Below, one piece after another: positions 3,285 to 29,107 of a stretch of 64,000 nucleotides of DNA. A model generated the notes under the pieces. It was given only the letters and a program-made list of their open reading frames with translations, was not told where the DNA came from and made no database searches. Source of the stretch: Geodermatophilus aquaeductus (GTDB lineage Bacteria; Actinomycetota; Actinomycetes; Mycobacteriales; Geodermatophilaceae); contig NZ_FXTJ01000009.1 in the NCBI RefSeq assembly GCF_900182545.1, forward strand, positions 62,001 to 126,000, in the 5' to 3' direction. Position 1 is the stretch's first letter. Each line of letters opens with the position of its first letter. A program made the position numbers and the translations under genes.

Positions 3285-4745
3285 TCAGCCGGTGCCGGTG
3301 TAGGTCACCGACCGGGCGAGCAGGGTGCCGCGCGAGCACCACAGGCCGCCCAGCCGCCCGGTCATGCCGCCGGCGACCTCGGTGGAGACGTAGCGCCCGT
3401 CGAGCCGGCCCAGCTCGGCGAACCCGCCCGCGCCGACGAGCCCCGCCACGAGGACGTCGGGCGCCAGCGCGGTCGAGGAGAAGTGCCCCTCGCCGGGCAG
3501 GGTGCGCATCTCCAGGACGACGTCCTCGCCGGGCACGACCTCCGCCTCGCCGAGCACCGAGCGCAGCGCGCCGACCTGGGCGACGGCACGGACCCGGTCG
3601 CCGTCGACCTCGAGGTCGAGGTGGTGGCGGGCGTCGATGCGCAGGGTCAGACCCCCGACCCCGGAGGAGGCCCGCACCACGGCGCGGAAGCCTGCCTGGA
3701 GGTGCTCCTGGCGGCGGCCCACGAACGCGAGGTCCTCCGACGCCGGGTCGGGATCGGCCGCGGACAGCAGCCAGCCGCCCTCGGCCCGCGTCAGCAGCTC
3801 GGCCGGGAAGCGCCGGGGCGCCACCCACGCGGGCCCGGAGAGGTCGTCGGCGACCACGACGGCGCCCTCCGGCGGGGTCAGCCACTCCCCCAGCCGCGGC
3901 CAGCCGTCCTCCCAGACCACCTCGGCGGCGAAGGTCTCCCGGCCCAGCACGTGGAACTGCGGGCTGGTGCCGCGGGGGCGCACGCCGTGGAAGACGACCG
4001 CCCAGCTGCCGTCGGGCCGCTGCACCAGGTCGGCGTGCCCGGTGTTCTGCACCGGGGACTCGACGCCGCGGTGGGTGAGCAGCGGGTTGGACGGGCAGGG
4101 CTCCCACGGCCCGGCCGGCGAGGGTCCGCGCGCCATGGTCACCGCGTGACCGCGCTCGGTGCCGCCCTCGGCGATGAGCAGGTACCAGAGGTCGCCCACC
4201 CGGTAGAGGTGCGGACCCTCGGGGAAGCGGCCGCCGGTGCCCTGCCAGAGCGGCCGCCGCTCGGTGAGCGCCGCGCCGGTGACCGGGTCGACGGCCTGCT
4301 GCACCAGCCCCGCGGGCCCGCCCGCGCCGAAGCCGGCGTAGCTCACCAGCAGCGTGCCGTCGTCATTCCAGGCGAGGTCGGGGTCGATGCCTCGGACGCC
4401 GGTCATGCGGACCGGGTCCGACCACTCGCCCAGCGGGTCCTCCGCGGAGGTGAACACCTGCCAGCCGCCGTCGGCGAGGTTGGTGGTGACCATCCAGAAC
4501 CGGCCGTCGTGGTGGCGGAGCGTCGGCGCGGTGATCCCGCCCGAGCCGGGCGCGGCCGAGACGTCGAGCTGTGAGGGGCGGGCCAGCACGTGCCCGGCCT
4601 GCTCCCACGTCACCAGGTCGGCCGAGCGGTACAGCGGGACGCCGGGGGCGTACTCGAAGCTCGAGTGCACCATCCAGTAGGTGTCGCCGACCCGGACCAC
4701 GCTCGGGTCGGGGTGGAAGCCGGGGACGACCGGTCGCGGCGTCAC
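3285..4745 (-). CDS. GH43 beta-xylosidase / alpha-L-arabinofuranosidase
   Basis: A 486-aa two-domain family 43 enzyme. The five-bladed propeller carries the expected residues: general base Asp13 in PGFHPDPS, the pKa-modulating Asp in GIDPD (121-123) and general acid Glu176 in FPEGPHLYR. The C-terminal third (about 320-486) is the beta-sandwich typical of GH43 beta-xylosidases that act on short oligosaccharides. No signal peptide, so a cytoplasmic enzyme. Its GTG start overlaps the preceding rhamnosidase stop by 4 nt (GTGA), indicating translational coupling. Xylose against arabinofuranose specificity is undecided; the arabinose regulon 25 kb away makes an arabinofuranosidase role plausible. 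Confidence 0.9.
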   Translation of the reverse strand: MTPRPVVPGFHPDPSVVRVGDTYWMVHSSFEYAPGVPLYRSADLVTWEQAGHVLARPSQLDVSAAPGSGGITAPTLRHHDGRFWMVTTNLADGGWQVFTSAEDPLGEWSDPVRMTGVRGIDPDLAWNDDGTLLVSYAGFGAGGPAGLVQQAVDPVTGAALTERRPLWQGTGGRFPEGPHLYRVGDLWYLLIAEGGTERGHAVTMARGPSPAGPWEPCPSNPLLTHRGVESPVQNTGHADLVQRPDGSWAVVFHGVRPRGTSPQFHVLGRETFAAEVVWEDGWPRLGEWLTPPEGAVVVADDLSGPAWVAPRRFPAELLTRAEGGWLLSAADPDPASEDLAFVGRRQEHLQAGFRAVVRASSGVGGLTLRIDARHHLDLEVDGDRVRAVAQVGALRSVLGEAEVVPGEDVVLEMRTLPGEGHFSSTALAPDVLVAGLVGAGGFAELGRLDGRYVSTEVAGGMTGRLGGLWCSRGTLLARSVTYTGTG

Positions 4746-7372
4746 GCGTGCGCGTCCGGGTCGAAGAACAGCGCCGGCCTCTCGACCGGCCGCGGCTCCT
4801 CGATCCCGCAGGTGAACGCGTGGCGGCCGGAGCCGACCTCCACCGGCGCGCCGCCGTCGGGCAGCGCGACCTCCGCCGTCGTGTTGGGCGGGACGACGAC
4901 ATCGAGGGCGAACGCCGTCCCTCCGGTCAGCGCCCACGACACCGACGCCGTCCCGTACGGCGTCTCGTGGGTGGCCGCCGCCGAGGTGAGCCCCGGCCCG
5001 GGGCGCGGGGCGAACCGGATCCGCCGGTAGCCCGGCGCGGCCGGCGCGAGCCCGGCGACCGTGCGGTGCAGCCAGTCGGCCACGGCGCCGAACGCGTAGT
5101 GGTTGAACGACGTCATGTCGCCGGGGTTCACGGTCCCGTCGGGGAGCAGCGAGTCCCACCGCTCCCAGATGGTCGTGGCGCCCATCGTCACCGGGTACAG
5201 CCACGACGGGTTCTCCCGCTGCAGCAGCAGCTCGTATGCCGTGGCCAGCTCCCCGGCGTCGGTCAGCGCGTCACACACCAGCGGCGTGCCGAGGAAGCCG
5301 CTGGCGATGTGGAAGCCGTCCTGCAGCACCTGCTGTGCCAGCAGGCGGCCGGCGTGCGCGCGCTGCGACGGCTCGAGCAGGTCGAACTCCAGCGCCAGCG
5401 CGTACGCCGTCTGCGAGGGGAAGGCGACCCGGCCGTTCGGGCTGACGTACTCCGCGCGGAACCGCGCGGCGGCCCGCTCCCCCAGCTCGGCGAACCGGGC
5501 GCCGTCGCGGCCGAGCACCTCCGCCGCCTGCGCGACCGTGCGCGCCGAGCGGGAGAGGTAGGCGGTGGCCACGCACTGCCACGGGGTCCGCGCGGCGGCC
5601 GGGTTGTCCGGCGGGGCGGCGGTGTCCAGCCAGTCGCCGAAGGAGAAGCCGCCGCCGGGGAAGTCGAGGTCCTCGCCCGCCCGCGCGGCGAACGCGTCGA
5701 TCCAGGCGGTCATCGAGGCCCACTGGTCGGCGAGCAGCCCGGCGTCGCCGGTGCGCTGGTACAGCACCCACGGGACGACGACGGCGGCGTCGCCCCAGCC
5801 CACCTCCGGCTGCTGCGGGAAGGGCAGCAGCGGCAGGAACGGCACGTACATCGGCACGGTGCCGTCGAACTCCCGCTGCTCGGCGGCGAGGTCGGCCAGC
5901 CAGGACCGCAGCATGCCGGTGGTGTCGTGGAGGAAGGCCGCCGTGGGCGCGAACACCTGCAGGTCGCCGGTCCAGCCCAGCCGCTCGTCGCGCTGCGGGC
6001 AGTCGGTGGGGACGTCGAGGAAGTTGCCCCGCATCCCCCAGACGACGTTCTCGTGCAGCCGCTCGACGTCGGGGTCGGAGCAGGCGAACGTGCCGGTGCG
6101 CCGCAGGTCGGTGTGCAGGACGACGGCCTCGACGTCCCCGGCGGTCAGCTCGCCGGGCCAGCCGCTCACCTCGGCGTACCGGAAGCCGTGGAAGGTGAAC
6201 CGCGGCTCCCAGGTGCGCGCCCCGCGCCCGTCGAGGACGACCACGTCGGTGGCCCGCGCCGAGCGCAGCGGCCGGGTGCCGAGCTCGCCGTGCTCGAGGA
6301 CCTCGGCGTGCCGGACGGTGACCTCCGTGCCGGCCGGGGCGTCGGGCAGCCGCAGCCGCAGCCGGCCCACGAGGTTCTGCCCGAGGTCGACCAGCACCCG
6401 CCCCGACGGCGAGGTGGACACCGACACCGCGGGCACGACCTCGGTGCGCCGCACCGGCGGGCCGGTCGGGGCGACCAGTGTCGAGACGTCCAGCTCGCCC
6501 GGCTCGACGGGCGTCCAGGCCGCGTCGTCGAAGCCCGGCGACGACCAGCCGGGCAGCGCGGCGCGCAGGTCGGCGGTCTCGCCGGAGTAGAGGCCGGCGC
6601 GGGTCAGCCAGCTCGGCGCCGAGCGCCACGACCCGTCGGTGGTCACGACCGTGCGGGAGCCGTCGGGGTGCTCGACCTCCAGCTGCGCGAACGCGCCGGT
6701 GCGGTCGCCGTACCAGTGCCGCTTCCCGGTGAAGCCGAGGTGGCCGCGGAACCAGCCGTCGGCCAGGTGCACGCCGAGCGCGTTGGCGCCCTCGCCGAGC
6801 AGCGCGGTGACGTCGTACGTGCGGTAGCGGAGGCGGTGCCGGTAGCTGGTCCAGCCCGGCGAGAGCACGTCGTCGCCGACGACGGCGCCGTTGAGCTCGG
6901 CCTCGAACACGCCCTGCGCGGTGGCGTGCAGGCGGGCGCGGACCACGGGCCGGTCGAGCGCGAACTCCCGCCGCAGCAGGACCGCCGGCTCCTCGCCCTC
7001 GGGCGGCACCGGCCGCACGAGGGTCGCCGTCCAGTCGGCGGGCTCGAGCAGGCCGGCCTCGACGACGACGTCCTGGCTCCAGGCGGACGGCTCGGCGTCG
7101 CCCTCGCCCCACACGCGGACGCGCACGCTGCGCCGCTCCCGGCTGGTCAGCGGCGGCGCGCCCCACGGCACGAGCACCGAGGCGTCGGTGCCGACGCGCC
7201 CGGAGGTCCAGGCCGGCCCGTCGTGCGGCTCGACCTCCACCTCGTACGCGGCCTGCCGCCAGCCGGGCAGCTCGGTCTGCGTGACCCAGGACAGCCGCGG
7301 CGTCGTCTCGCCGATGCCGAGCGGCTCGCGGGAGTGCTCGACGGTGACGGCGCCGACGGTCAGGTCGCTCAC
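4742..7372 (-). CDS. GH78 alpha-L-rhamnosidase (first of two)
   Basis: An 876-aa family 78 enzyme that releases terminal alpha-L-rhamnose from plant glycosides. N-terminal beta-sandwich domains (about 1-350) precede the six-hairpin catalytic barrel. The signature DCPQRDERLGWTGDLQ at about 456-471 includes the acidic residues used as catalytic acid and substrate ligands. The C-terminus has the usual small beta-domain. No signal peptide. The GTG start at 7372 overlaps the stop of the esterase by 4 nt, and its own stop overlaps the GH43 start by 4 nt. It is clearly a paralogue of the other GH78 in the operon (8298-10943), with the same domain order but a different active-site spacing, so the two may attack different linkages. 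Confidence 0.93.
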   Translation of the reverse strand: MSDLTVGAVTVEHSREPLGIGETTPRLSWVTQTELPGWRQAAYEVEVEPHDGPAWTSGRVGTDASVLVPWGAPPLTSRERRSVRVRVWGEGDAEPSAWSQDVVVEAGLLEPADWTATLVRPVPPEGEEPAVLLRREFALDRPVVRARLHATAQGVFEAELNGAVVGDDVLSPGWTSYRHRLRYRTYDVTALLGEGANALGVHLADGWFRGHLGFTGKRHWYGDRTGAFAQLEVEHPDGSRTVVTTDGSWRSAPSWLTRAGLYSGETADLRAALPGWSSPGFDDAAWTPVEPGELDVSTLVAPTGPPVRRTEVVPAVSVSTSPSGRVLVDLGQNLVGRLRLRLPDAPAGTEVTVRHAEVLEHGELGTRPLRSARATDVVVLDGRGARTWEPRFTFHGFRYAEVSGWPGELTAGDVEAVVLHTDLRRTGTFACSDPDVERLHENVVWGMRGNFLDVPTDCPQRDERLGWTGDLQVFAPTAAFLHDTTGMLRSWLADLAAEQREFDGTVPMYVPFLPLLPFPQQPEVGWGDAAVVVPWVLYQRTGDAGLLADQWASMTAWIDAFAARAGEDLDFPGGGFSFGDWLDTAAPPDNPAAARTPWQCVATAYLSRSARTVAQAAEVLGRDGARFAELGERAAARFRAEYVSPNGRVAFPSQTAYALALEFDLLEPSQRAHAGRLLAQQVLQDGFHIASGFLGTPLVCDALTDAGELATAYELLLQRENPSWLYPVTMGATTIWERWDSLLPDGTVNPGDMTSFNHYAFGAVADWLHRTVAGLAPAAPGYRRIRFAPRPGPGLTSAAATHETPYGTASVSWALTGGTAFALDVVVPPNTTAEVALPDGGAPVEVGSGRHAFTCGIEEPRPVERPALFFDPDAHA

Positions 7373-8301
7373 GCCCGGGCTCCGATCAGTGCGTCGGCGA
7401 GGTAGCGGACCGAGAGGTCCACCAGGCCGTCGACGTCCCGGGACCCCGCGAAGATGTGCTCCGCCCCGTCGACGGGCACGAGGCGGACCGGTACCCCGGC
7501 CCCCTGCAGCGCGTCGCGCAGCCGCTCGCTCTGCGCGTAGGGCACCAGCCAGTCGGCGGTGCCGTGCACGAGCAGGAACGGCGGCGCGTGCTCCGTGACG
7601 TGGGTGACCGGGCTGGCGTCGGCGAGCGCCTGCCCCTCCAGCCCGCGGACCAGCACGTCCTCCGGCGGGGTGCGCATCGCCTCGGGGAGCTTCGCCTGGA
7701 CGTGCGGCGGCGGGGTCGCCCGCGGCATGGTCTCGAGGTCGGAGACGCCGTACCAGTCGACGGCGACGTCGACCGCGCTGGACGGCCCGACGACGCCGAG
7801 GTCGCCCTCCAGGTCGGCGCGGTGCCCGGTGAGCGCGACCAGCGCGGCCAGGTGGCCGCCGGCCGACTCGCCCGCGACCCCGATCCGCGTGACGTCGACG
7901 CCGAGCTCGCCGGCGTGCGCGCGCAGGTAGCGGACCGCGGCCTTCGCGTCGTGCAGTTGCGCGGGGAACGGCGCCTCGAGCGCGAACCGGTAGTCGATGG
8001 TGGCCACCGCCAGCCCGGCGGCGACGAACGCCTCGAAGAGCTGGTCGGGCCGCAGCGTCTCGGGCAGGTACCGGCGGTCGCCCGTCATCCAGCCGCCGCC
8101 GTGCACCCAGACCACCAGCGGAGCGGGCGCCGCGGTGTCGGGCACCCAGACGTCGAGCTGCAGCGGCCGGTAGCCGGCCGGGCAGGCGTAGGTGACGCCG
8201 GAGAAGACGCGGACGCCGTCGTCGCGGCGGGTGGGCGCCGGCGGCAGCAGGTACCGGGCGGGGCCGGCCCACTCGAAGGGCTGCTCGTCGGTGGTGCTCA
8301 T
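7369..8301 (-). CDS. Alpha/beta-hydrolase esterase (BD-FAE/HSL-like)
   Basis: A 310-aa carboxylesterase. HGGGW is the oxyanion-hole motif, GESAGG carries the nucleophilic Ser, and HGTADWLVP and DGAEHIF contribute the Asp and His of the triad. Enzymes of this type, often near glycoside hydrolases, remove acetyl, feruloyl or similar acyl groups from plant sugars; no signal peptide is seen. It sits between the two GH78 genes with 4-nt overlaps on both sides (ATGA and GTGA), so it is co-translated with them and probably deacylates the same imported glycosides. It resembles the esterase at 23027-23932 (same DYR, DAKAAVRYLRA-like and GPSSAV segments), indicating duplication within this region. Confidence 0.88.
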   Translation of the reverse strand: MSTTDEQPFEWAGPARYLLPPAPTRRDDGVRVFSGVTYACPAGYRPLQLDVWVPDTAAPAPLVVWVHGGGWMTGDRRYLPETLRPDQLFEAFVAAGLAVATIDYRFALEAPFPAQLHDAKAAVRYLRAHAGELGVDVTRIGVAGESAGGHLAALVALTGHRADLEGDLGVVGPSSAVDVAVDWYGVSDLETMPRATPPPHVQAKLPEAMRTPPEDVLVRGLEGQALADASPVTHVTEHAPPFLLVHGTADWLVPYAQSERLRDALQGAGVPVRLVPVDGAEHIFAGSRDVDGLVDLSVRYLADALIGARA

Positions 8302-10943
8302 CGCGTCTCCTCGGGGGTGCTCGTGAACTCGTGCCGGCCGGGGCCGGCGGTCGCGGTGGTGCCGTCGGGCAGGACGACCTCGGCCTCGGTGCCGGCCGGG
8401 ACCTCGACGGTCAGGGACAGGACGCCGTCGTCGATCCGCCAGGCCGATCCGATCCGGCCGTACGGCGACTCGTGCGCGGCCTCGGCGGAGGTGAGCCCGC
8501 CGCCGGGCCGCGGGCGCACGCGGAAACGGCGGTACGCGGGCTCGAGCGGCTCGATCCCGGCGGTGGAGCGGTGCAGGAAGGAGATGACCGCGCCCTTGGA
8601 GTAGTGGTTGAGCGACTCGTGCGGCACCCCGTCGGCGTCCACGCCGTTCCAGTGCTCCCACACGGTGGTGGAGCCGCGGTCGACCATGACCAGCCAGCCG
8701 GGCTCGCCGTCCTGCATCAGCAGCTCGTAGGCGACGTCGAGGTGGCCGGTGTCGGCGAGGACGGGCAGCAGGGACGGCGTGGCGAGGAAGCCGGTGCCGA
8801 GGCGGGTGCCGGCCTTGCGGACCAGCTCGACCAGCCGCTCGGCCACGGCCGGGCGCAGCTCCTCGGGCACCAGGTCGAAGGCGAGCGCACGCACGTGGTT
8901 CGCCTGCGTGTCCGGCGTCAGCCGTCCGTCGGCGTCGAGGTACTCGGCCTGCCAGGCGGCCCGCGCGTTCCCGGCGAGCTCGGCGTAGCGTGCCGCGTCG
9001 TCGTCCCTGCCGAGCACCGCGGCGATCCGCGCCATGAGCGAGGCGCTGTGCGCGTAGTACGCGGTGGCGACGTCGCCCTCGTCGGAGGCGACGAACGCCC
9101 CGAAGTCGCCGACCTCCTCGCCCGGCACGAGCCACTCGCCCCAGTGGAAGCCGGTGTCCCACAGCCACCGCTCGTGCGGCGCCGGCTCGGGGCGGCGGGC
9201 GGCGCGGGCGGGGTGGCGCTGCTCGCGGGCCGTCCGCCCGGTGCGGTCCAGCCAGCGGACCATCGCCGGCCAGGTCTCCTCGAGCACGCCGGTGTCCCCG
9301 TAGGCCCGGTACAGCTCCCACGGGACGATGACCACCGCGTCGCCCCAGCCGGCCGACCCGTTGAGGAAGGACACCGGGCTGTCCCGGCCCTCCCCGCGCG
9401 GGCACGGGCTGACGTTCGCGACCGTCCCGTCGGGCCACTGGTCGGCCACGACGTCGCGCAGCCACTTGGTGGAGAAGCCGGCGACGTCGTACAGGAAGGC
9501 GGCGGTCGGGACGTAGAGCTGCCAGTCGCCGGTCCAGCCGTGCCGCTCGCGGTGCGGGCAGTCGGTGGGGACGTCGCAGGCGTTGCCGCGGAAGCTCCAC
9601 ACCGCCGCCTCGTGGAAGCGGTCGAGGCGCGCGTCGCTGCTGCGGAACCAGCCGGTGCGGCGCAGGTCGGTGTGCACGACCACCCCGCGGACGTCGTCGG
9701 GGGTGAGGTCGTGCGGATGGCCCTCGACGCGCACGTAGCGGAAGCCGTGCGTGGTGCGCCGCGGCTCGAAGAGCTCGCCGGGCACCCCGGCGGAGACGAC
9801 GGCGTCGACCTGGCCGGCCGGCAGCGGGTGCGGGAGGAACGGCAGGTCCGGCCGCAGGTGCTCCACCGTGACGTCGCCGTCGGGCGCGAGCCACTCGCCG
9901 TGGGTGAGCGTGAGCTCGGTGCCGGCCGGGCCGAGGTCGGTCAGGCGGAGCCAGCCGTTGACGTTCTGGCCGAGGTCGACCACCTGCGCCCCGCCCGGCA
10001 GCCGGGTGACCGAGACGGGGACGAGCTCCGCCACCCGGCGCACCGGCGGAGCCGGCGAGTCGACCAGCCCGGCGAACCCGTGCTCGACCACCTGCACCGG
10101 CTCCCAGCCGGCGTCGTCGGAGCCGGGGGCGTCCCAGCCGCGCGGCAGCGCGAGCAGGTCCCAGCGCTCGCCCGCGATGAGGTCGGCGGCGACGATGTGG
10201 CCGACCGCGCTGCGCCAGCCCGGGCCGGTGCCGAGCACGGTGACGGTGCCGTCGTCGTGGGCGAGGTGCAGCTGGGCGAGGACGGCGACCCGGTCGCCCC
10301 ACTGGTCGGCCGAGCGGGTGACGCCGGTCTGGCCGCGGAACCAGCCGTCGGCGAGGACCACGGCCAGGACGTGCCGGCCCGCGGACACCGGGCCGACGTC
10401 GTGAGTCTGCACCTGCAGCCGCTGGTCGTACTGCGTGTAGCCGGGGGTCAGCTCGGCGTCGCCGATCCGCGTCCCGTCGAGGAACACCTCGTAGAGCCCC
10501 TGTGCGGTGGCGTGCAGCCGGGCGAAGACGGCCGGCCGGTCGACGTCGAACTCCCGGCGCAGCAGCGCGCCCGGCCGCTCCCCCGCCGGTCCGCCGGGCA
10601 TCGAGCCCGGCTCGATCCAATCGGCGGACCAGTCCCCGGCCGACAGCAGGCCGGTCTCGAACCAGGCCGGCTCCGACGCCGGGCTCTCGCCGAGGTCGGT
10701 GCGCACCTGCACCCGCCAGTGCACCCGCTGCGACGACTCCGGCGCCGGGCCGGCGTAGGGCACGAGCAGGTGGCCGGAGTCCTCGACCCAGCCGGTGTCC
10801 CAGCCGTCGTCGGAGGTCAGGCGGTACGCGCGCTGCTCGCGGGCGCCGTCGGGCAGCCGCCACGACAGCCGCGGCGCGGTCGTGCGGATGCCGAGCGGCT
10901 CGTCGAGGTGCTCGACCCGCAGGCCGTCCGGGGCTTCGGGCAT
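8298..10943 (-). CDS. GH78 alpha-L-rhamnosidase (second of two)
   Basis: An 881-aa GH78 enzyme with the N-terminal beta domains, central six-hairpin barrel and short C-terminal beta domain. The catalytic signature reads DCPHRERHGWTGDWQ at about 460, one residue shorter between DCP and GW than in the other GH78; this variant occurs within the family and need not mean loss of activity. Start chosen at the ATG at 10943 (MPEAPDGL), which has GGGAG 5 nt upstream; a longer in-frame extension lacks such a site. The stop overlaps the esterase start by 4 nt. A 90-bp gap with a hairpin separates it from the transporter ATPase upstream, so expression may be tuned relative to the importer. Confidence 0.92.
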   Translation of the reverse strand: MPEAPDGLRVEHLDEPLGIRTTAPRLSWRLPDGAREQRAYRLTSDDGWDTGWVEDSGHLLVPYAGPAPESSQRVHWRVQVRTDLGESPASEPAWFETGLLSAGDWSADWIEPGSMPGGPAGERPGALLRREFDVDRPAVFARLHATAQGLYEVFLDGTRIGDAELTPGYTQYDQRLQVQTHDVGPVSAGRHVLAVVLADGWFRGQTGVTRSADQWGDRVAVLAQLHLAHDDGTVTVLGTGPGWRSAVGHIVAADLIAGERWDLLALPRGWDAPGSDDAGWEPVQVVEHGFAGLVDSPAPPVRRVAELVPVSVTRLPGGAQVVDLGQNVNGWLRLTDLGPAGTELTLTHGEWLAPDGDVTVEHLRPDLPFLPHPLPAGQVDAVVSAGVPGELFEPRRTTHGFRYVRVEGHPHDLTPDDVRGVVVHTDLRRTGWFRSSDARLDRFHEAAVWSFRGNACDVPTDCPHRERHGWTGDWQLYVPTAAFLYDVAGFSTKWLRDVVADQWPDGTVANVSPCPRGEGRDSPVSFLNGSAGWGDAVVIVPWELYRAYGDTGVLEETWPAMVRWLDRTGRTAREQRHPARAARRPEPAPHERWLWDTGFHWGEWLVPGEEVGDFGAFVASDEGDVATAYYAHSASLMARIAAVLGRDDDAARYAELAGNARAAWQAEYLDADGRLTPDTQANHVRALAFDLVPEELRPAVAERLVELVRKAGTRLGTGFLATPSLLPVLADTGHLDVAYELLMQDGEPGWLVMVDRGSTTVWEHWNGVDADGVPHESLNHYSKGAVISFLHRSTAGIEPLEPAYRRFRVRPRPGGGLTSAEAAHESPYGRIGSAWRIDDGVLSLTVEVPAGTEAEVVLPDGTTATAGPGRHEFTSTPEETR

Positions 10944-16873: not shown

Positions 16874-17677
16874 ATGACCGACGTCCCCTCCCCCGCGGCG
16901 CGGGTCCGCGGGCGCCGGCCACCGCAGGGCGACCCGGTGGTCGACCGGGCCCTGGCGCTGCTGGCCGCCTTCGACGCCACGCACCCCGCGCTGACCCTCG
17001 GCGAGCTGTCCCGCCGCAGCGGCATCCCGACCAGCTCCACGCTGCGTCTCGCCGGGCGGCTGCAGGCCTGGGGCGCGCTCGAGCGCGGCGCCGACGGCCG
17101 GTTCACCGTGGGACTGCGGCTGTGGGAGGTCGCCTCGCTGGCGCCGCGCGCCCGCGGGCTGCGCCAGGTGGCGATGCCCTACCTGGGCGACCTCGAGGAG
17201 GTCACCCGCCAGCACGTGCTGCTCGCCGTCCGGGAGGGCGGGGACGCCGTCCTGGTGGAGCGGCTGTCGGCGCACGCGGCGATCCCGGTGCTCTACCAGG
17301 TGGGCGGCCGGCTGCCCCTGCACTCGACGGGGGTCGGGTTGGTGCTGCTCGCCTTCGCCGATCCCGACGTGCAGGAGGAGTACCTGGGCCGGCCCCTGCT
17401 GCACGAGCCCGAGCGCATCCCGGTGTCGGAGGCCGCGCTGCGCCGCACCCTGGCCGACGTCCGCCGGGACGGGCTGTCGGTGTTCCGGCGGAAGGTCCCG
17501 CAGCCGCTGGTGTCGGTGGCCGCGCCGGTGTTCGACGCGCAGGACCGGCTGGCGGCGTCGGTCTCCGTCGTCGTCCCGGAGGAGCGCGCCGACGCGCGGC
17601 TGCTCGGCCCGGCGGTGCGGACGGCTGCGCGCGCGATCTCCCGCGAGCTCGGGGCCCGGCGGCCGCTCGGCCGCTGA
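16874..17677 (+). CDS. IclR-family transcriptional regulator
   Basis: A 267-aa regulator with an N-terminal winged helix (VVDRALALLAAFDATHPALT, ELSRRSGIPTSSTLRLAGRL; about 18-80) and the C-terminal effector-binding domain (about 95-260), including LHSTGVGLVLLAF and the FRRKVPQPLVSVAAPVFD core. IclR proteins bind short palindromes as dimers or tetramers and respond to small carbon compounds or aromatics. Start chosen at the ATG at 16874, preceded by GGGAG at 7 nt; a longer frame would begin inside the operator. It is transcribed divergently from the glycoside importer operon and followed by an esterase gene with another operator. I propose it is the master regulator of the surrounding catabolic genes. 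Confidence 0.92.
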   Translation: MTDVPSPAARVRGRRPPQGDPVVDRALALLAAFDATHPALTLGELSRRSGIPTSSTLRLAGRLQAWGALERGADGRFTVGLRLWEVASLAPRARGLRQVAMPYLGDLEEVTRQHVLLAVREGGDAVLVERLSAHAAIPVLYQVGGRLPLHSTGVGLVLLAFADPDVQEEYLGRPLLHEPERIPVSEAALRRTLADVRRDGLSVFRRKVPQPLVSVAAPVFDAQDRLAASVSVVVPEERADARLLGPAVRTAARAISRELGARRPLGR

Positions 17678-22397: not shown

Positions 22398-22955
22398 ATG
22401 AGCTTCGAGTACCTGATCGACCCGGAGAAGGGCCCGCAGTGGCAGGGCGTGCTGCCCGGCAAGCCGGTCCCCTACGTGCTCCGGCGCGGCGAGGGCGAGC
22501 ACGCGATGCTCTTCGGCGACCTGTTCACCGTGCTGCTCTCCGGCGACGAGACGCAGAACCAGTTCGGGATCATCGTCAGCGACTCCCCCGCCGGCGACGT
22601 CATCCCGACGCACTCGCACAACGAGACGCACGAGACGTTCTTCGTCCTCGACGGGAAGGTGCGGCTCTTCTTCGAGGACGCCGAGGGCGGGAAGCAGTCG
22701 CAGCTGCTCACCCCGGGCGACTTCGGCTACGTGCCGGCCGGCTTCGCCCACGCGTACCAGATCGTCGAGGACGCCCGGATGATGGGCACCCTCTCCGGCG
22801 GCTTCGAGCGGTTCTTCCAGCACATGGGCCAGCCGACCGACCACCCGACGAAGGAGCAGCCGCCCTTCATCCCGGACTTCCCGCGCATGCAGGCGGCCGC
22901 GCAGCAGCACAACATGCAGTTCCTGCGCGACGTCGAGTGGCCCGAGCACGCCTGA
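22398..22955 (+). CDS. Monocupin dioxygenase, QueD-like (putative quercetin 2,3-dioxygenase)
   Basis: A 185-aa single-domain cupin. Motif 1 is complete, G66-X5-H72-X-H74-X4-E79-X6-G86, and motif 2 gives G107-X5-P113-X-G115-X2-H118, so the four metal ligands are H72, H74, E79 and H118. Length, this ligand spacing and segments such as AMLFGDL, PTHSHNETHETF and LLTPGDFGYVPAGFAHAY resemble the monocupin quercetinase QueD described from Streptomyces, whose ligands I recall as H69, H71, E76, H115 (same spacing). Quercetinase opens the flavonol C-ring, releasing CO and a depside. Start ATG has GGGAG 5 nt upstream. It has an IclR-box upstream, and a terminator hairpin and an esterase gene follow. Another aromatic or sugar cupin function cannot be excluded. 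Confidence 0.75.
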   Translation: MSFEYLIDPEKGPQWQGVLPGKPVPYVLRRGEGEHAMLFGDLFTVLLSGDETQNQFGIIVSDSPAGDVIPTHSHNETHETFFVLDGKVRLFFEDAEGGKQSQLLTPGDFGYVPAGFAHAYQIVEDARMMGTLSGGFERFFQHMGQPTDHPTKEQPPFIPDFPRMQAAAQQHNMQFLRDVEWPEHA

Positions 22956-23026: not shown

Positions 23027-23932
23027 GTGCCCACCCCCGCCCTGCCGCTGCCGCCGCCGGCCCACGCCGCTCCCCTGCCGCCGGCCTCCCCCGGTCCGGA
23101 CGGCACCCGGTTCCTCGGCGGCGTCCCGTACGCCGCGCTCCCGGGCGCCCGCCCGCTGGAGCTCGACCTGTACCTACCGGCCGGCGACGGCCCGCACCCG
23201 GTCGCGCTGTTCCTGCACGGCGGCGGCTGGCGGCTGGGCAGCCGGCGCTCGGGCGGCCCGGCGTTCCCGGGCCGCGGCCTCTTCGAGCGGGTCGCGGCCG
23301 CCGGGATCGCCGTCGCCAGCGCCGACTACCGGCTCTCCGGCGAGGCGGTCTGGCCGGCGCAGCTCTCGGACGCGAAGGCCGCCGTCCGCTGGCTGCGTGC
23401 CCGGGCCGGCGAGCTCGGCGTCGACGGCGACCGGATCGCCGCGTGGGGCGAGTCGGCCGGCGGGCACCTCGCCGAGCTGCTCGGGCTGGTCGCCGACGAG
23501 GGCCTGGAGGGCGACGTCGGCGTGACCGGCCCGTCGAGCGCCGTCGTCGCGGTGGCCGCCTGGTACGCGCCCACCGACGTCGCCGCCGTCGCTCCCGACA
23601 CCGGCGCCGACCCGGCCGACGCCACCACCCGCGAGGCCCAGCTGCTCGGCGCGGCACCGTCGGCCGTGCCCGAGGTCGCCGCCCAGGCCAGCCCGGTGAC
23701 GTACGCGCGCGCCGGCGCCCCGCCGTTCCTGCTGCTGCACGGGCGGGCCGACCGGTTCGTCCCGTGCGTGCAGAGCGAGCGGCTGGCCGCGGCCCTGGCC
23801 GGCGCCGGGGCCGACGTCGCGCTGCACACCTACGACGGCGCCGACCACATGTGGCTGGGCGCTCCGGAGGCGGCCGCCGACGCCCTCGACCGCACGGTCG
23901 CCTTCCTCCGCGCCCGCCTGCTCGCGGGCTGA
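23027..23932 (+). CDS. Alpha/beta-hydrolase esterase (possible depside hydrolase)
   Basis: A 301-aa carboxylesterase related to the one at 7369-8301. HGGGW (oxyanion), GESAGGH (nucleophile Ser), HGRADRFVP (Asp) and DGADHMW (His) form the triad. No signal peptide; a Pro/Ala-rich N-terminus of about 30 residues. Start is the GTG with GAGGAGG 6 nt upstream. It follows the QueD-like cupin in the same direction, so it may hydrolyse that enzyme's ester product (for quercetin, the depside to protocatechuate and a phloroglucinol carboxylate). That reaction is inferred from position only; acyl-sugar deacylation is the main alternative. Confidence 0.87.
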   Translation: MPTPALPLPPPAHAAPLPPASPGPDGTRFLGGVPYAALPGARPLELDLYLPAGDGPHPVALFLHGGGWRLGSRRSGGPAFPGRGLFERVAAAGIAVASADYRLSGEAVWPAQLSDAKAAVRWLRARAGELGVDGDRIAAWGESAGGHLAELLGLVADEGLEGDVGVTGPSSAVVAVAAWYAPTDVAAVAPDTGADPADATTREAQLLGAAPSAVPEVAAQASPVTYARAGAPPFLLLHGRADRFVPCVQSERLAAALAGAGADVALHTYDGADHMWLGAPEAAADALDRTVAFLRARLLAG

Positions 23933-24101: not shown

Positions 24102-25736
24102 GTGACCGAAGCGCACGTCCCTCCCCGGGTGCCGGTCCTCGTCGCCGGCGGCGGCCCCAGCGGGCTCGCCGCCGCTCTCGAGCTCGGCCGGCGGGGCGTC
24201 GAGGTGCTCGTCGTCGAGCCCCGCACGGTCCTCGACCCGCTGCGCCCCCGCGCCAAGACCACCAGCGTCCGCACCATGGAGCACCTGCGCCGCTGGGGCC
24301 TGGCCGACCGGCTGCGCGCCGCGGCGCCGCTGCCGGTGTCGCACGCCCAGGATGTCGTCTTCTGCACCGGCCTGTTCGGCCACGAGATCACCCGCTTCCC
24401 CGAGGCCTTCGGGCTGTGGACGCAGCCGCGCCAGATCGCCGCGGAGGCCGGCCAGCAGGCGCCCCAGCCCGACGTCGAGGTCCTGCTGCGGGCGGCCGCC
24501 GCCGAGCTCGCGTCGGTCACCGTGCTGGTGGGCTCGCGCGTCACCGCGGTCGTCGACGGCCCCGACGAGGTGCGCGCGACGATCGAGGGCCCGGACGGCA
24601 CCACCACCGAGGTCGCCGCGGAGTACCTGCTCGGCTGCGACGGCAGCGGCGGGATCTCCCGCCGCGCGATCGGCGCCCGCTACGAGGGCTCCTCGGGCGC
24701 GCTGCCGAACCTCAGCGTCACCTTCCGCTCCCGGGCGCTGGAGGAGCGGCCGCTGTGCGCGCTCGGCGTCCACTACTGGGTCATCGGCACCGAGCGCGGC
24801 GGGCTCATGGGCCGCCTCGACCTCGACGGCACGTGGTGGGCGATCGTCCAGGGCGTCGACACCGTCGCCGGGGACGCCGACCCCGTGGCGCTGGTGCGCG
24901 CCATGGTCGGGGACGACATCGACGTCGAGGTGCTGGCCACCGACCCGTGGCAGGCGCGGATGCTGCTGGCTGACCGCTACCGCGGCGAGCGGGTGTTCCT
25001 CGTCGGCGACGCCGCGCACCTCAACCCGCCGTGGGGCGGGCACGGGTTCAACACCTGCGTCGGCGACGCGGTGAACGTGGGCTGGAAGCTCGCCGCCGTC
25101 CTGCGCGGCTGGGCACCGGCCGGCCTGCTCGACAGCTACGAGCCCGAGCGGCGTCCGGTGGCCCGGCGGACGATCGAGGCGGCCGGCGGCCAGGAGGCCT
25201 TCCTCGCCCCCGCCTTCTCCGGCCGCGACGTCGACGACGACGGCCCGACCGGCTGGGAGCTGCGCGCGGCCCTGGCCGAGGCGCTGCAGGTCAAGGACCC
25301 CGAGTTCCACAGCCTCGGCCTGGTCCTCGGCTACGACTACCCCGACTCCCCCGTCGTCGTCCCCGACGGCCGCCCGGTGCCCGAGCCCACGCTGGCCACC
25401 TTCACGCCCTCGGGCCACCCCGGCGCGCGGCTGCCGCACGCGTGGCTGGCCGACGGCGACTCGCTGTTCGACCGGCTCGGCCCCGAGCTGAGCCTGCTGC
25501 GCCTGGACGCCGCGGCCGACCCCGCGCCGCTGGCCGCCGAGGCACAGCGGCGCGGGGTCCCGCTGACCGTCGTCGACCTGCCCGGCGTCCCGGGGCTGCG
25601 CGAGCTGCTGGGCGAGGACCTGGTGCTCGTGCGGCCCGACCAGCACGTGGCCTGGCGCGGCCCGGCCGTCGCCGACCCCGCCGCGCTGTTCGACCGCGTG
25701 CTGGGCGTCCCCGTCCCGGCTCCCGCCGCCCGCTGA
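24102..25736 (+). CDS. FAD-dependent aromatic hydroxylase (PHBH/MhpA superfamily)
   Basis: A 544-aa group A flavoprotein monooxygenase. The N-terminal GGGPSGLAAALELGRRG with terminal Glu binds FAD, LLGCDGSGG is the DG motif, and VFLVGDAAHLNPPWGGHGFNT is the GD motif contacting the flavin ribityl; the C-terminal 130 residues form the thioredoxin-like domain of the phenol-hydroxylase/MhpA branch. It inserts one oxygen ortho to a phenolic hydroxyl using NAD(P)H. Start GTG has AGGAG at 6 nt. First of four co-directional genes (GH1, FAH, DUF3500) and preceded by an IclR operator. In context it could hydroxylate a flavonoid A-ring or a phloroglucinol-type product before ring cleavage, but the substrate is not readable. 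Confidence 0.9.
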   Translation: MTEAHVPPRVPVLVAGGGPSGLAAALELGRRGVEVLVVEPRTVLDPLRPRAKTTSVRTMEHLRRWGLADRLRAAAPLPVSHAQDVVFCTGLFGHEITRFPEAFGLWTQPRQIAAEAGQQAPQPDVEVLLRAAAAELASVTVLVGSRVTAVVDGPDEVRATIEGPDGTTTEVAAEYLLGCDGSGGISRRAIGARYEGSSGALPNLSVTFRSRALEERPLCALGVHYWVIGTERGGLMGRLDLDGTWWAIVQGVDTVAGDADPVALVRAMVGDDIDVEVLATDPWQARMLLADRYRGERVFLVGDAAHLNPPWGGHGFNTCVGDAVNVGWKLAAVLRGWAPAGLLDSYEPERRPVARRTIEAAGGQEAFLAPAFSGRDVDDDGPTGWELRAALAEALQVKDPEFHSLGLVLGYDYPDSPVVVPDGRPVPEPTLATFTPSGHPGARLPHAWLADGDSLFDRLGPELSLLRLDAAADPAPLAAEAQRRGVPLTVVDLPGVPGLRELLGEDLVLVRPDQHVAWRGPAVADPAALFDRVLGVPVPAPAAR

Positions 25737-25759
25737 CCCACTCTCCGAGGAGACGACCG

Positions 25760-26932
25760 ATGACCGCACGCTTCCCCGAGGGCTTCCTCTGGGGCTCCGC
25801 GACCGCCGCCCACCAGGTCGAGGGCGGCAACGTGAACAACGACCACTGGGAGATGGAGCACGCCGAGCACTCGCCGTTCAGCGAGCCCAGCGGCGACGCC
25901 TGCGACTCCTTCCACCGCTGGCCCGAGGACCTCGACCTCGTCGCCGGCGCGGGCCTCAACACCTACCGGTTCAGCCTCGAGTGGAGCCGCATCGAGCCCG
26001 AGGAGGGCGAGGTCTCCCGGGCCGCGCTGGACCACTACCGCCGGATCGTCGACGGCTGCCGTGACCGCGGGCTGACGCCGGTGGTCACGCTCGTGCACTT
26101 CACCCAGCCCCGCTGGCTGTTCCACGACGGCGGCTGGACCGGCCCGAAGACCGGGGACCGCATCGCCCGCTACACCGAGACCGTGCTGCCGGTGCTCGCC
26201 GACGCGGAATACGTGGCCACGCTCAACGAGCCCAACCTGATGGCCGCCCAGCCGGTGATGGGTGCGATGGCCCGGCGCGGCGAGAAGATCAGGGGCCTCC
26301 CGCGGCCCGACCAGGAGGTCGCCGACGCGCTGCTCGGCCTGCACGCCCGATCGACGGAGGTGCTGCGCGGGAACGTCCGCAACGCCGGCCTGACGCTCGT
26401 CGGGCGGGAGCACCTCGCCGAGCCCGGCGGCGAGCAGCGGATGCAGGAGGAGCGGGCCGCCTTCGAGGACCAGTTCCTCGAGGCCGCCCGCGGCGACGAC
26501 TTCGTCGGCCTGCAGGTCTACACCTGCGCCCGCTTCGGCCCCGACGGGCTGGTCGCCCCCGCTCGTGAGCTGCAGACCCTCGCCCACGGCATGGAGCGCC
26601 GCCCGCAGGCGCTCGGCGCCGCGGTCACCCGCGCCGCCGAGGTGCTGCCCGGGATGCCGCTGTTCGTCACCGAGAACGGCATCGCCACCGCCGACGACGC
26701 CGACCGCATCGCCTTCACCACCGACGCGCTGACCTCGCTGGCCGCCGCGATCGAGGCCGGCGCGGACGTCCGCGGCTACCTGCACTGGTCGCTGCTGGAC
26801 AACTTCGAGTGGATGCTCGGCTACCGGCCCACGTTCGGCCTGGTCGCCGTCGACCGGCAGACCTTCGCCCGCACGCCCAAGCCGAGCCTGGCGTGGCTCG
26901 GCGAGGTGGCCCGCCGGAACGGCCTGGCCTGA
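25760..26932 (+). CDS. GH1 beta-glucosidase
   Basis: A 390-aa family 1 enzyme. Acid/base Glu157 is in TLNEPN and nucleophile Glu305 in VTENG; GFLWGSATAAHQVEGG and LHWSLLDNFEWMLGY are the sugar-binding N- and C-terminal signatures. It is shorter than the usual 440-480 residues, with reduced barrel loops. No signal peptide. It lies 23 bp after the FAD monooxygenase and its stop overlaps the FAH start in TGATG. Being co-transcribed with an aromatic hydroxylase and an FAH enzyme, it likely removes beta-glucose from an imported phenolic glucoside, possibly after rhamnose has been trimmed. Confidence 0.92.
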   Translation: MTARFPEGFLWGSATAAHQVEGGNVNNDHWEMEHAEHSPFSEPSGDACDSFHRWPEDLDLVAGAGLNTYRFSLEWSRIEPEEGEVSRAALDHYRRIVDGCRDRGLTPVVTLVHFTQPRWLFHDGGWTGPKTGDRIARYTETVLPVLADAEYVATLNEPNLMAAQPVMGAMARRGEKIRGLPRPDQEVADALLGLHARSTEVLRGNVRNAGLTLVGREHLAEPGGEQRMQEERAAFEDQFLEAARGDDFVGLQVYTCARFGPDGLVAPARELQTLAHGMERRPQALGAAVTRAAEVLPGMPLFVTENGIATADDADRIAFTTDALTSLAAAIEAGADVRGYLHWSLLDNFEWMLGYRPTFGLVAVDRQTFARTPKPSLAWLGEVARRNGLA

Positions 26933-27795
26933 TGCGCGTCGTGGGGATCCGCCGCGCCGGCGGACCGGTGGAGGTGGCCGCGCTGTCCGGCGACGGCGCC
27001 GCGGTGACCGTGCTGGCACGGCTGGAGGAGTTCTGGGCCGACGCGGCCGGCTTCCTGGCCGCCGACCCGGCCGGGGATCCCGTGCCGGCCGCCGACGTGG
27101 AGTTCGTGCCGCCGGTGCTGCCCGGCGCCCGGGTGGTGTGCATCGGGCTGAACTACCTGAAGCACGTGGCGGAAGGCTCCTATGCCGGCGAGGGGGTGCC
27201 GCCGTACCCGACGCTGTTCGCCCGCTGGACCGCCTCGCTCACCGTCGACGGCGCGGAGATCCCGGTGCCCGCCGACGAGGACGGTCTGGACTGGGAGGGC
27301 GAGGTGGTGGCCTACGTCGGCTCGACACTGGTCGACGCGACGCCGGAGGAGGCGCTGGCCGCCGTCGTCGGCTACTCGACGTTCAACGACGTCACCTCCC
27401 GGCGGGCGCAGAAGCTCACCAGCCAGTGGATCCTCGGCAAGAACGGCGACCGCTCCGGCCCGCTCGGGCCGCTCGTGCCGGCCGCGGAGGTCGGCGACCT
27501 GCGCGACGGCCTGCGGGTGACCACCCGGGTGAACGGCGAGACGGTCCAGGACGGCCGGACCGACGAGATGGTCTACACGGTCGGGGACACGCTCTCGCTG
27601 GTCAGCCGCACACTCACGCTCCGACCCGGTGACCTGCTGGCCACCGGCACGCCGTCGGGCGTCGGCTACGCCCGCACGCCCCCGTGGCTCATGCAGCCGG
27701 GCGACGTCGTGGAGGTCGAGGTCGAGCGCCTCGGTGTCCTCACCAACCGGATCGTGGGGACCAGCGCCCGGGAGGTGGCGCGCCGTGGCCGGTGA
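26932..27795 (+). CDS. FAH-family hydrolase (fumarylacetoacetase/acylpyruvase-like)
   Basis: A 287-aa member of the fumarylacetoacetate hydrolase family. The conserved GLNYLKHVAE entry, the metal-binding acidic motif DWEGEVVAYVG, LGKNGDRSGPLGP and the terminal TGTPSGVGYARTPPWLMQPGD stretch are all present. Family members cleave C-C bonds of acylpyruvates and beta-diketo acids, or hydrate and decarboxylate ring-cleavage products. Translationally coupled to GH1 upstream and overlapping DUF3500 downstream by 11 nt. This suggests it handles an open-ring product of the aromatic substrate hydroxylated by the first operon gene. No separate extradiol ring-cleavage dioxygenase is visible in the window. 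Confidence 0.9.
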   Translation: MRVVGIRRAGGPVEVAALSGDGAAVTVLARLEEFWADAAGFLAADPAGDPVPAADVEFVPPVLPGARVVCIGLNYLKHVAEGSYAGEGVPPYPTLFARWTASLTVDGAEIPVPADEDGLDWEGEVVAYVGSTLVDATPEEALAAVVGYSTFNDVTSRRAQKLTSQWILGKNGDRSGPLGPLVPAAEVGDLRDGLRVTTRVNGETVQDGRTDEMVYTVGDTLSLVSRTLTLRPGDLLATGTPSGVGYARTPPWLMQPGDVVEVEVERLGVLTNRIVGTSAREVARRGR

Positions 27796-29041
27796 GTTCC
27801 GGCGGTACCTGTTCCCGCACGACCACCCGCGGTTGGCGGAGGTCCGCGGGATGGACCCCCACGCCTACCGCGAGCACGCCCGCACGCCCGGGACGTTCAC
27901 CGGCGGGCTGGTCGAGGGCTGGACGCCGCTGTACCTCGCGCCGTTCCGCGGGGTCACCGAGGACGGCGTCCTGCGCGACGGCCTGTACCCGCTGACGCCG
28001 GCCGGGCCCGGCGAGGAGGCGCCGGTGGCCGCGATGGTGGCCGCCGCCGAGACGCTCCTCGGCCTGCTGACGCCCGAGGACCGCGCGCGGGTCTGCCTCC
28101 CCGTGGACGCGCCCGAGTGGCAGACCTGGGCCAACCCCGAGTTCATGCAGTTCGACACCGGGCTGCGGCTGGAGTTCCAGCCGCCGGAGGTGCGCGAGGC
28201 CGCGCTGGCGCTGGTCCGCGCCTCGCTGTCGCCCGAGGGCGCCGCCCTCGTGCACGCGGCGATGCTGGTCAACGGCTTCCTCGGCGACGTCGTCGACCTG
28301 CCCACCGTGCTCGGCGACTGGAGCTACAACGTCGCGCTCTACGGCACCCCCGACCTGCGCGCGCCGTGGGGCTGGCAGCTCTACGGCCACCACTGCGCGG
28401 TCAACGTGCTCGTGGTCGAGGGCCGGATGGCCGTCTCACCGGTGTTCGTGGGCGCCGAGCCCGACGAGATCGACGACGGCCCGCACGCCGGCGTCTCCGG
28501 CCTCTTCGCCGACCGGATCGAGACGGGTCTGGGCGTGATGGCGGCGCTGACGCCGGAGCAGCGGGCGCAGGCCACCGTCTACGAGCAGATGGTCGACCCG
28601 GCGATGCCGCCCGGCCGCGTGCACCCCGGCGACGAGCGGCACCTGGCCGGGGCGTTCCAGGACAACCGCGTCATCCCGGTCGAGGGCGTGCGGTGCTCGG
28701 AGGTGTCGGAGGAGGCTCGGGCCCGCGTGCTCGACGTCGTCGCGACGTTCGTGCGGCTGCTGCCGGAGGGTCCGCGCACGGCGCGGCTGCGCGAGGTCGA
28801 GGCGCACCTGGACGAGACGTGGTTCTCCTGGATCGGCGGGCACGCGCCCGGCGACGTCTTCTACTACCGGGTGCAGTCGCCGGTGGTGATCGCCGAGCTC
28901 GACCACCACTGCGGGGTGTTCCTCGACTACGACACCCCCAAGCCCTTCCACGTGCACACCGTGCTGCGCACCCCGCACGGCAACGACTACGGCCGCGCCT
29001 GGGTCCGGGAGTGGCAGTCGCAGCACGATCAGGTGGGCTGA
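27785..29041 (+). CDS. DUF3500 family protein
   Basis: A 418-aa protein of the DUF3500 family, recognised by WGWQLYGHHCAVNVLVV, SPVFVGAEPDEID, the late VVIAELDHHCGVFLDYD and HVHTVLRTPHGNDYG motifs. The clustered His residues (GHHC, DHHC, HVH) suggest metal binding or catalysis, but no function is established for the family as far as I know. No signal peptide or membrane segment. Its GTG start overlaps the FAH gene by 11 nt, and a terminator follows the stop, so it is the last gene of the FAD monooxygenase operon. Its place in an aromatic glycoside pathway that lacks an obvious ring-cleavage enzyme makes it a candidate for that step or a hydrolytic one. Confidence 0.85.
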   Translation: MAGEFRRYLFPHDHPRLAEVRGMDPHAYREHARTPGTFTGGLVEGWTPLYLAPFRGVTEDGVLRDGLYPLTPAGPGEEAPVAAMVAAAETLLGLLTPEDRARVCLPVDAPEWQTWANPEFMQFDTGLRLEFQPPEVREAALALVRASLSPEGAALVHAAMLVNGFLGDVVDLPTVLGDWSYNVALYGTPDLRAPWGWQLYGHHCAVNVLVVEGRMAVSPVFVGAEPDEIDDGPHAGVSGLFADRIETGLGVMAALTPEQRAQATVYEQMVDPAMPPGRVHPGDERHLAGAFQDNRVIPVEGVRCSEVSEEARARVLDVVATFVRLLPEGPRTARLREVEAHLDETWFSWIGGHAPGDVFYYRVQSPVVIAELDHHCGVFLDYDTPKPFHVHTVLRTPHGNDYGRAWVREWQSQHDQVG

Positions 29042-29048
29042 TCGTGCC

Positions 29049-29084
29049 GCGTCCTGGCTCACCGTCGGCGGTGAGCCAGGACGC
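29049..29084. terminator. Bidirectional hairpin between DUF3500 and araA
   Basis: Perfect 16-bp stem GCGTCCTGGCTCACCG with loop TCGG, placed between convergent genes (8 nt after the DUF3500 stop, 24 nt from the araA stop). A shorter direct repeat of CCAGGACG follows on the right. Suited to ending transcription from both sides. Confidence 0.8.
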
Positions 29085-29107
29085 GCGGTGAGAAGCCAGG
29101 ACGAGGG

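Follow-up and report, generated by a model that had tools for sequence, protein, structure and literature searches.

A DUF3500 protein as candidate ring-opening enzyme in a putative flavonol-glycoside catabolic operon of Geodermatophilus aquaeductus

A 64,000-nucleotide stretch of the genome of Geodermatophilus aquaeductus (contig NZ_FXTJ01000009.1 of assembly GCF_900182545.1, positions 62,001 to 126,000; here called the window) carries a gene for a protein of family DUF3500 at the end of a run of six genes on the same strand. We put at about even the chance that these genes form a flavonol-glycoside catabolic operon, a bacterial counterpart of the fungal 1,2,3,5-tetrahydroxybenzene (THB) central pathway, of which we infer every substrate and product. 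More tentatively, and at somewhat less than an even chance, the DUF3500 protein may be a dioxygenase that cleaves rings but differs in fold from the known ring-cleavage superfamilies, sharing its scaffold with a dehydratase of an antibiotic pathway and having an invariant site of four His and one Glu; in Actinobacteria it may complete an aerobic pathway in which rutin-type flavonols are converted, via tetrahydroxybenzene and malonylpyruvate, to pyruvate and malonate. No such central aromatic pathway of bacteria was found in print in the literature searched. No function of a bacterial DUF3500 protein was found in that literature either, which omits most subscription papers. A preliminary description of this DNA had already suggested DUF3500 for a ring-opening step in an aromatic glycoside operon; that core idea holds, while the operon limits, the substrate class and the claim for the family as a whole had to be corrected, and the operon would represent a bacterial variant of a pathway so far described in fungi. 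The genes concerned, and the hairpin that follows them, are these:

22398-22955, + strand: monocupin, quercetinase-like, predicted flavonol C-ring dioxygenase (Cupin_2; homologue of QueD, 5fli, and YxaG, 1y3t)
23027-23932, + strand: alpha/beta hydrolase, predicted depside esterase, start uncertain (BD-FAE, E 3e-52; function suggested by position)
24102-25736, + strand, GTG start: flavin adenine dinucleotide (FAD) aromatic hydroxylase (FAD_binding_3 and Rng_hyd_C by Pfam; NF004780 above its cut-off; RebC-like in the PDB)
25760-26932, + strand: GH1 beta-glycosidase, an optional module member (PF00232; closest solved chain 8kap)
26932-27795, + strand: FAH-superfamily hydrolase, predicted 2,4-dioxoadipate hydrolase (PF01557, E 1.2e-63; solved relatives of acylpyruvate type)
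27785-29041, + strand, GTG start: DUF3500 protein of 418 amino acids (aa), predicted ring-opening enzyme (PF12006, 338 bits, E 6e-101)
29048-29085, no strand: 17-bp hairpin without a T-run, between convergent genes (folding against shuffled sequences)

The FAD hydroxylase, GH1, FAH and DUF3500 genes were confirmed to be contiguous on the + strand from 24102 to 29041, with a gap of 23 nt between the hydroxylase and GH1 genes and with overlaps among the last three, as described previously, of 1 nt (GH1/FAH) and 11 nt (FAH/DUF3500). The hydroxylase gene starts at 24102 or, as preferred by the gene caller, at 24129. These four genes were placed correctly, but the cupin and esterase genes upstream on the same strand had been left out of the operon. 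The match of the last protein to PF12006, against a curated cut-off of 27.2 bits, makes it a member of DUF3500. It is the single DUF3500 match in the source genome (5.43 Mb, 99.97% complete), and its closest named relative among the matches kept is from Geodermatophilus amargosae (93%). The strong terminator said to end the operon was borne out as a stable structure: the stem is perfect, the 66-nt stretch around it folds at -48.6 kcal/mol (z -6.1), and 0 of 200 shuffles were as stable. It is, however, not a canonical intrinsic terminator, since it has no T-run. The hairpin separates the convergent DUF3500 and araA-like genes and could stop transcription from either side.

The link of the window's DUF3500 clade to aromatic catabolism was strong and was observed directly in gene neighbourhoods. 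Counts out of 80 refer to the best 80 of 238 DUF3500 loci from a scan of named genomes, with one DUF3500 per locus; chosen in this way, the 80 loci describe close relatives, and related species among them are not independent. Within six genes of DUF3500, an FAH gene was found in 75 of the 80 loci, an FAD hydroxylase gene in 60 and both in 57. FAH genes made up 74 of the 465 genes within three positions of DUF3500 versus 3 of the 454 genes beyond six, and the source genome has only 4 FAH genes. FAH was absent from five loci (L161, L163, L170, L186, which is at a contig edge, and L189). Other neighbours within six genes were GntR/FCD (43/80), esterase (36/80), cupin (30/80) and IclR (28/80) genes, and cupin, hydroxylase and FAH occurred together in 28 loci. 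Genes for GH1 (16/80), coenzyme A (CoA)-transferase III (13/80), carboxyltransferase (13/80) and GH78 (5/80) were rarer, and GH1 was rejected as a core member of the module on its count. Gene orders varied, with FAH directly upstream of DUF3500, FAH behind a GntR gene on the opposite strand, or the order FAH-hydroxylase-DUF3500; locus L185 (Arthrobacter) had an arrangement of its own (ABC transporter, esterase, FAH, hydroxylase, DUF3500, bicupin, GH78, GH1). The hydroxylases near DUF3500 were of three kinds, namely the window type (44 loci), the MhpA type (17) and the salicylate/3-hydroxybenzoate-hydroxylase type (5). In a tree of 82 thinned rows, built by a quick method without bootstrap, the window protein fell in a supported clade of 20 rows, of which 19 have FAH nearby. 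Genes in the loci were predicted with a custom gene caller, which called DUF3500 in 78/78 loci and still split some genes, among them the CoA-transferase and carboxyltransferase genes of L142, called as fragments.

In locus L063, which is more distantly related (47% identity in its DUF3500 part), an FAD hydroxylase and DUF3500 were found joined in a single 974-aa protein; because the two are fused there, hydroxylase and DUF3500 probably act in succession. The fungal gene cluster that holds the DUF3500 gene AN10530 is said to contain a monooxygenase and an FAH-like gene as well, with 2,4,6-trihydroxybenzoate reportedly mentioned, and the same co-clustering was found here in the 57 loci with both genes. 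In a paper on Rhodococcus qingshengii RL1 (PMC8416521), DUF3500 has a locus tag near those of an MhpA-type hydroxylase, an MFS transporter, an HTH gene and an FCD gene, a set that fits the neighbourhood pattern of the clade. In L122 and L021 (Geodermatophilus africanus), the FAH gene is intact, but the adjoining DUF3500 is broken into frames of 178 and 204 aa, as a pseudogene or through a sequencing error.

Whether the linkage extends to the family was assessed at 52 loci with distant DUF3500 proteins. The expectation that DUF3500 lies near aromatic genes stood for the close relatives, which are nearly always near FAH, but not for the distant ones, at which FAH was within three genes in 5 of the 52 loci (L080, L089, L094, L095 and L112) and neighbours were mixed; DUF3500 as a generally aromatic family was thereby ruled out. 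Representatives of the ten largest neighbour clusters at the distant loci were SDR, ABM, RraA, GFO/IDH/MocA, HTH_67, FAD-binding, BKACE, HupE, histidine kinase and luciferase-type proteins. At two actinobacterial loci (L089 and L095), a distant DUF3500 (26% identity) adjoins an FAH that is 79 to 81% identical to the window FAH, and L095 additionally has an FAD hydroxylase, a small cupin and a CoA-transferase III. On plasmids, DUF3500 was found with FAH, a hydratase, an aldolase and a nearby hpaD dioxygenase gene in Thioclava and with FAH and a Rieske protein in Paraburkholderia, both of them Proteobacteria, with a cupin, an AMP-binding protein and FAH in R. qingshengii, and with a Rieske protein and aldolases, and no FAH listed, in Streptomyces chartreusis; no clear aromatic set was found at five plasmid loci of distant DUF3500 from Komagataeibacter, Sphingomonas, Agrobacterium, Deinococcus and Ancylobacter. 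At the five distant plasmid loci L203 to L207, a small hypothetical gene (about 155 to 190 aa) lies immediately after the DUF3500 match, and in Deinococcus a HupE/UreJ gene comes next; DUF3500 probably has a different function there. Five loci from the genus of the window (L029 to L033) combine a distant DUF3500 with an ABM-domain protein, an HTH_67 regulator and an RraA-like aldolase, and in 4/5 with a BKACE enzyme, perhaps as another ring-cleavage-type pathway. DUF3500 was present in 16 of 26 genomes of a genus sample, 50 of 150 of an order sample and 26 of 396 of a phylum sample.

No benzene-ring dioxygenase of a known family was found among the six genes of the operon by Pfam, in line with the earlier statement that the ring-cleavage enzyme is missing. 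A predicted ring-opening dioxygenase is present nonetheless, although it would act on the flavonol C ring rather than on a benzene ring, because the upstream cupin is a quercetinase homologue: it matches YxaG (1y3t, E 3.3e-43) and QueD (5fli, E 3.8e-40), and its 3His/1Glu metal-ligand stretch (HxH...E...H) aligns with that of QueD, from which quercetinase activity is predicted. The description of an aromatic glycoside operon stood with respect to aromatic catabolism, but flavonol-glycoside catabolism is the better term, with a quercetinase upstream. In the proposed pathway, glycosidases would remove the sugars, and the cupin quercetinase would open the flavonol C ring to give a depside and CO. 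The depside would be split into protocatechuate and 2,4,6-trihydroxybenzoate by an esterase, for which the hydrolase at 23027-23932 is, by its position, the natural candidate. The FAD hydroxylase would then convert 2,4,6-trihydroxybenzoate (with decarboxylation) or phloroglucinol to THB, which DUF3500 would open with O2 between two adjacent hydroxylated carbons to 2,4-dihydroxymuconate/2,4-dioxoadipate (malonylpyruvate) or its lactone, and FAH would hydrolyse 2,4-dioxoadipate to pyruvate and malonate. By chemical reasoning, one dioxygenation is needed, as C6H6O4 + O2 = C6H6O6, and since 2,4-dioxoadipate, the keto form of 2,4-dihydroxymuconate, is an acylpyruvate, an FAH-type cleavage would yield pyruvate and malonate. 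Hydrolysis of the opened product, the other role once offered for DUF3500, fits FAH better. For the missing ring opening DUF3500 did prove the best candidate, as judged from its linkage to FAH and hydroxylase, from the hydroxylase-DUF3500 fusion and from its accord with the fungal proposal: in excerpts of a 2025 review (PMC12388069), the Aspergillus nidulans DUF3500 protein AN10530 is proposed as a dioxygenase that converts THB to 5-hydroxydienelactone, and excerpts of a 2026 source (PMC13094099) likewise propose DUF3500 as the ring-opening enzyme of the fungal THB pathway, described there as seemingly fungal only.

The module could instead be a general funnel for another polyhydroxylated aromatic (e.g., gallate, hydroxyquinol or a substituted phenol), with flavonol enzymes attached in some lineages only and with a ring other than THB as the DUF3500 substrate. 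The presence of cupin in only 30 of the 80 loci, the three kinds of FAD hydroxylase and the Rieske oxygenases found instead at some plasmid loci agree with this. We consider it improbable, as different hydroxylases could feed a shared THB and the operon includes a quercetinase, through which the A ring should be released as an acid of phloroglucinol type that a single hydroxylation separates from THB. The quercetinase route to such an acid is established chemistry.

A further clue to the end product of the THB route came from malonate-type genes, which were observed in some related loci. CoA-transferase III and an AccD/AccA-type carboxyltransferase were both within six genes of DUF3500 in 10 of the 80 loci (L134, L138, L142, L143, L145, L153, L170, L183, L185 and L188, of which L170 is without nearby FAH), which span what we take to be five families. 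In the source genome, the homologous pair lies directly behind a MatC_N carrier, which carries the Pfam label of a dicarboxylate carrier and presumably transports malonate; the three genes are consecutive (L223:6170-10342, contig C2) and likely form a malonate-use operon without the classical malonate decarboxylase set. CoA-transferases of the ten loci were 68 to 85% identical to the MatC-adjacent one versus 36 to 43% to its paralogue. Malonate as end product of the pathway is thus suggestive, and if the link holds, FAH should release malonate.

The structure of the DUF3500 protein was modelled confidently, with a predicted local distance difference test score (pLDDT) of 90.8 and a predicted template-modelling score (pTM) of 0.92. 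Its sole clear structural relative was 9x86 (Foldseek E 1.5e-17; VIA Z 20.8, root mean square deviation 2.8, 252/255 residues, 28% identity). No known ring-cleavage dioxygenase superfamily was among the Foldseek and VIA matches, an absence that is not proof. Conservation was assessed in an alignment of 121 DUF3500 proteins (61 of the close set, 8 intermediate and 52 distant; pieces below 260 aa dropped); the close set comprised the window protein and 60 of the 81 proteins that remained after exclusion of 4 pieces below 370 aa. H202, H203, H389 and H391 were invariant (121/121), could bind a metal and align with His in 9x86, and E371 aligns with a Glu there. The three His motifs of the preliminary description, GHHC (201-204), DHHC (373-376) and HVH (389-391), are present, but DHHC is typical of the clade and only GHH and HxH are invariant in the family: H374 and H375 were found in 60/61 proteins of the close set and in 4/8 intermediate ones, and neither H375 nor the DERHLAGAFQDNR block is matched in 9x86. 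In the model, strands 369-374 and 390-395 may form a hairpin, by which H374/H375 would come close to H389/H391.

Several observations weigh against DUF3500 as the dioxygenase of a THB pathway. The one DUF3500 structure that has been solved, 9x86, bears the title of dehydratase ApmL (amipurimycin biosynthesis), and the invariant His, being common to it, do not mark a dioxygenase. FAH was within three genes in 1 of 8 loci of intermediate DUF3500 proteins, and none was labelled within nine genes of the fusion L063; among the 80 loci, an FAD hydroxylase was not within six genes in 20, nor a cupin in 50. Homologues of classical dioxygenases were found with five queries in 7/80 loci (8 proteins, of which 2, in L156 and L157, were strong matches) and, in another locus set, as 4 proteins in 4 loci (2 strong, in L073 and L093). 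Ring opening in trans is possible because the source genome has other ring-opening dioxygenases, namely LigB-type genes, with 5 matches of which one lies some 9 kb ahead of the window, as well as an intradiol dioxygenase of catechol/hydroxyquinol type. The malonate link is not exclusive, since 10 of 20 further carboxyltransferase loci have neither MatC nor CoA-transferase nearby (MatC near 4, CoA-transferase near 9, both near 3).

The dehydratase title of its solved relative makes a non-oxidative role a serious rival, if an unlikely one: DUF3500 could be a dehydratase, a lactone-forming or lactone-opening enzyme, a tautomerase or a C-C hydrolase that acts next to ring opening, while the ring itself would be opened by the FAD hydroxylase, by another dioxygenase acting in trans or once THB has autoxidised. 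The shared His and E371 and the LigB-type and intradiol-type dioxygenases of the genome speak for such a role. It is opposed by the lack from 9x86 of the clade-typical H375 and DERHLAGAFQDNR block; by the absence of any classical dioxygenase conserved beside the clade in the 80 loci, as judged from five queries, by which other families would be missed; and by the one O2 that pyruvate and malonate as products would need, no other oxygenase being conserved in the operon. Dioxygenase activity of DUF3500 is the best single reading.

The region around the operon looks like a rutin-type flavonol-glycoside island, with GH3 (by Pfam) and GH43 genes, with genes read as rhamnose and arabinose utilisation (labelled partly by Pfam, otherwise by sequence inspection), and with the following features:

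4742-7372, - strand: GH78 alpha-L-rhamnosidase (Pfam)
8298-10943, - strand: GH78 alpha-L-rhamnosidase (Pfam)
16874-17677, + strand: IclR-type regulator, PcaR/PcaU-like (below the NCBIfam cut-off)

In an island so rich in rhamnose genes, FAH, and perhaps DUF3500, could act in sugar-acid breakdown, e.g., as L-2,4-diketo-3-deoxyrhamnonate hydrolase, and FAH does match NF053535 (147 bits) and 8gsr. We give this very little weight: 147 bits is far under the cut-off of 500, which speaks against FAH as an L-2,4-diketo-3-deoxyrhamnonate hydrolase, and FAH accompanies DUF3500 and aromatic hydroxylases in many loci at which no GH78 was found nearby. Also in the region around the operon (58291-61863), a shikimate dehydrogenase gene, a gene for a QuiC-like dehydroshikimate dehydratase that scores below its cut-off and a third gene with no Pfam match likely form a branch from quinate/shikimate to protocatechuate. 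About 9 kb before the window, on contig C9 (L222:8109-12248), genes for a LigB-type extradiol dioxygenase, a small LigA-like protein (no Pfam match), a citrate-synthase-like protein, a CoA-transferase III and a Zn-dehydrogenase make up a candidate second aromatic cluster near the island.

If the THB pathway operates as proposed, it would offer a function for DUF3500, a protein family of unknown function, list the genes by which aerobic bacteria process the flavonoid A ring and extend to bacteria a pathway considered fungal, with malonate predicted as specific end product. The operon resembles the fungal THB pathway (Martins et al. 2024; AN10530), as far as that is covered by the excerpts, in DUF3500 as proposed ring opener, and is likened to it by family and gene linkage; it differs in having quercetinase, esterase and glycosidase genes and, in relatives, malonate-type genes. 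With ApmL/Amc20 (9x86), on which no paper was found by title among the literature matches listed, the DUF3500 protein shares the fold and the invariant His and Glu, and a shared fold is not a shared reaction; ApmL, besides lacking H375 and the DERHLAGAFQDNR block, is 297 aa long, is without the N-terminal 80 or so residues and belongs to a biosynthetic pathway. The window FAH is of the same sequence family as the acylpyruvate hydrolases of the FAH superfamily (8gsr, FAHD1), with 2,4-dioxoadipate as its predicted substrate. The window cupin, lastly, is homologous to Streptomyces QueD and Bacillus YxaG, with the metal-ligand stretch aligned, and differs from both in that its gene heads a longer catabolic operon.

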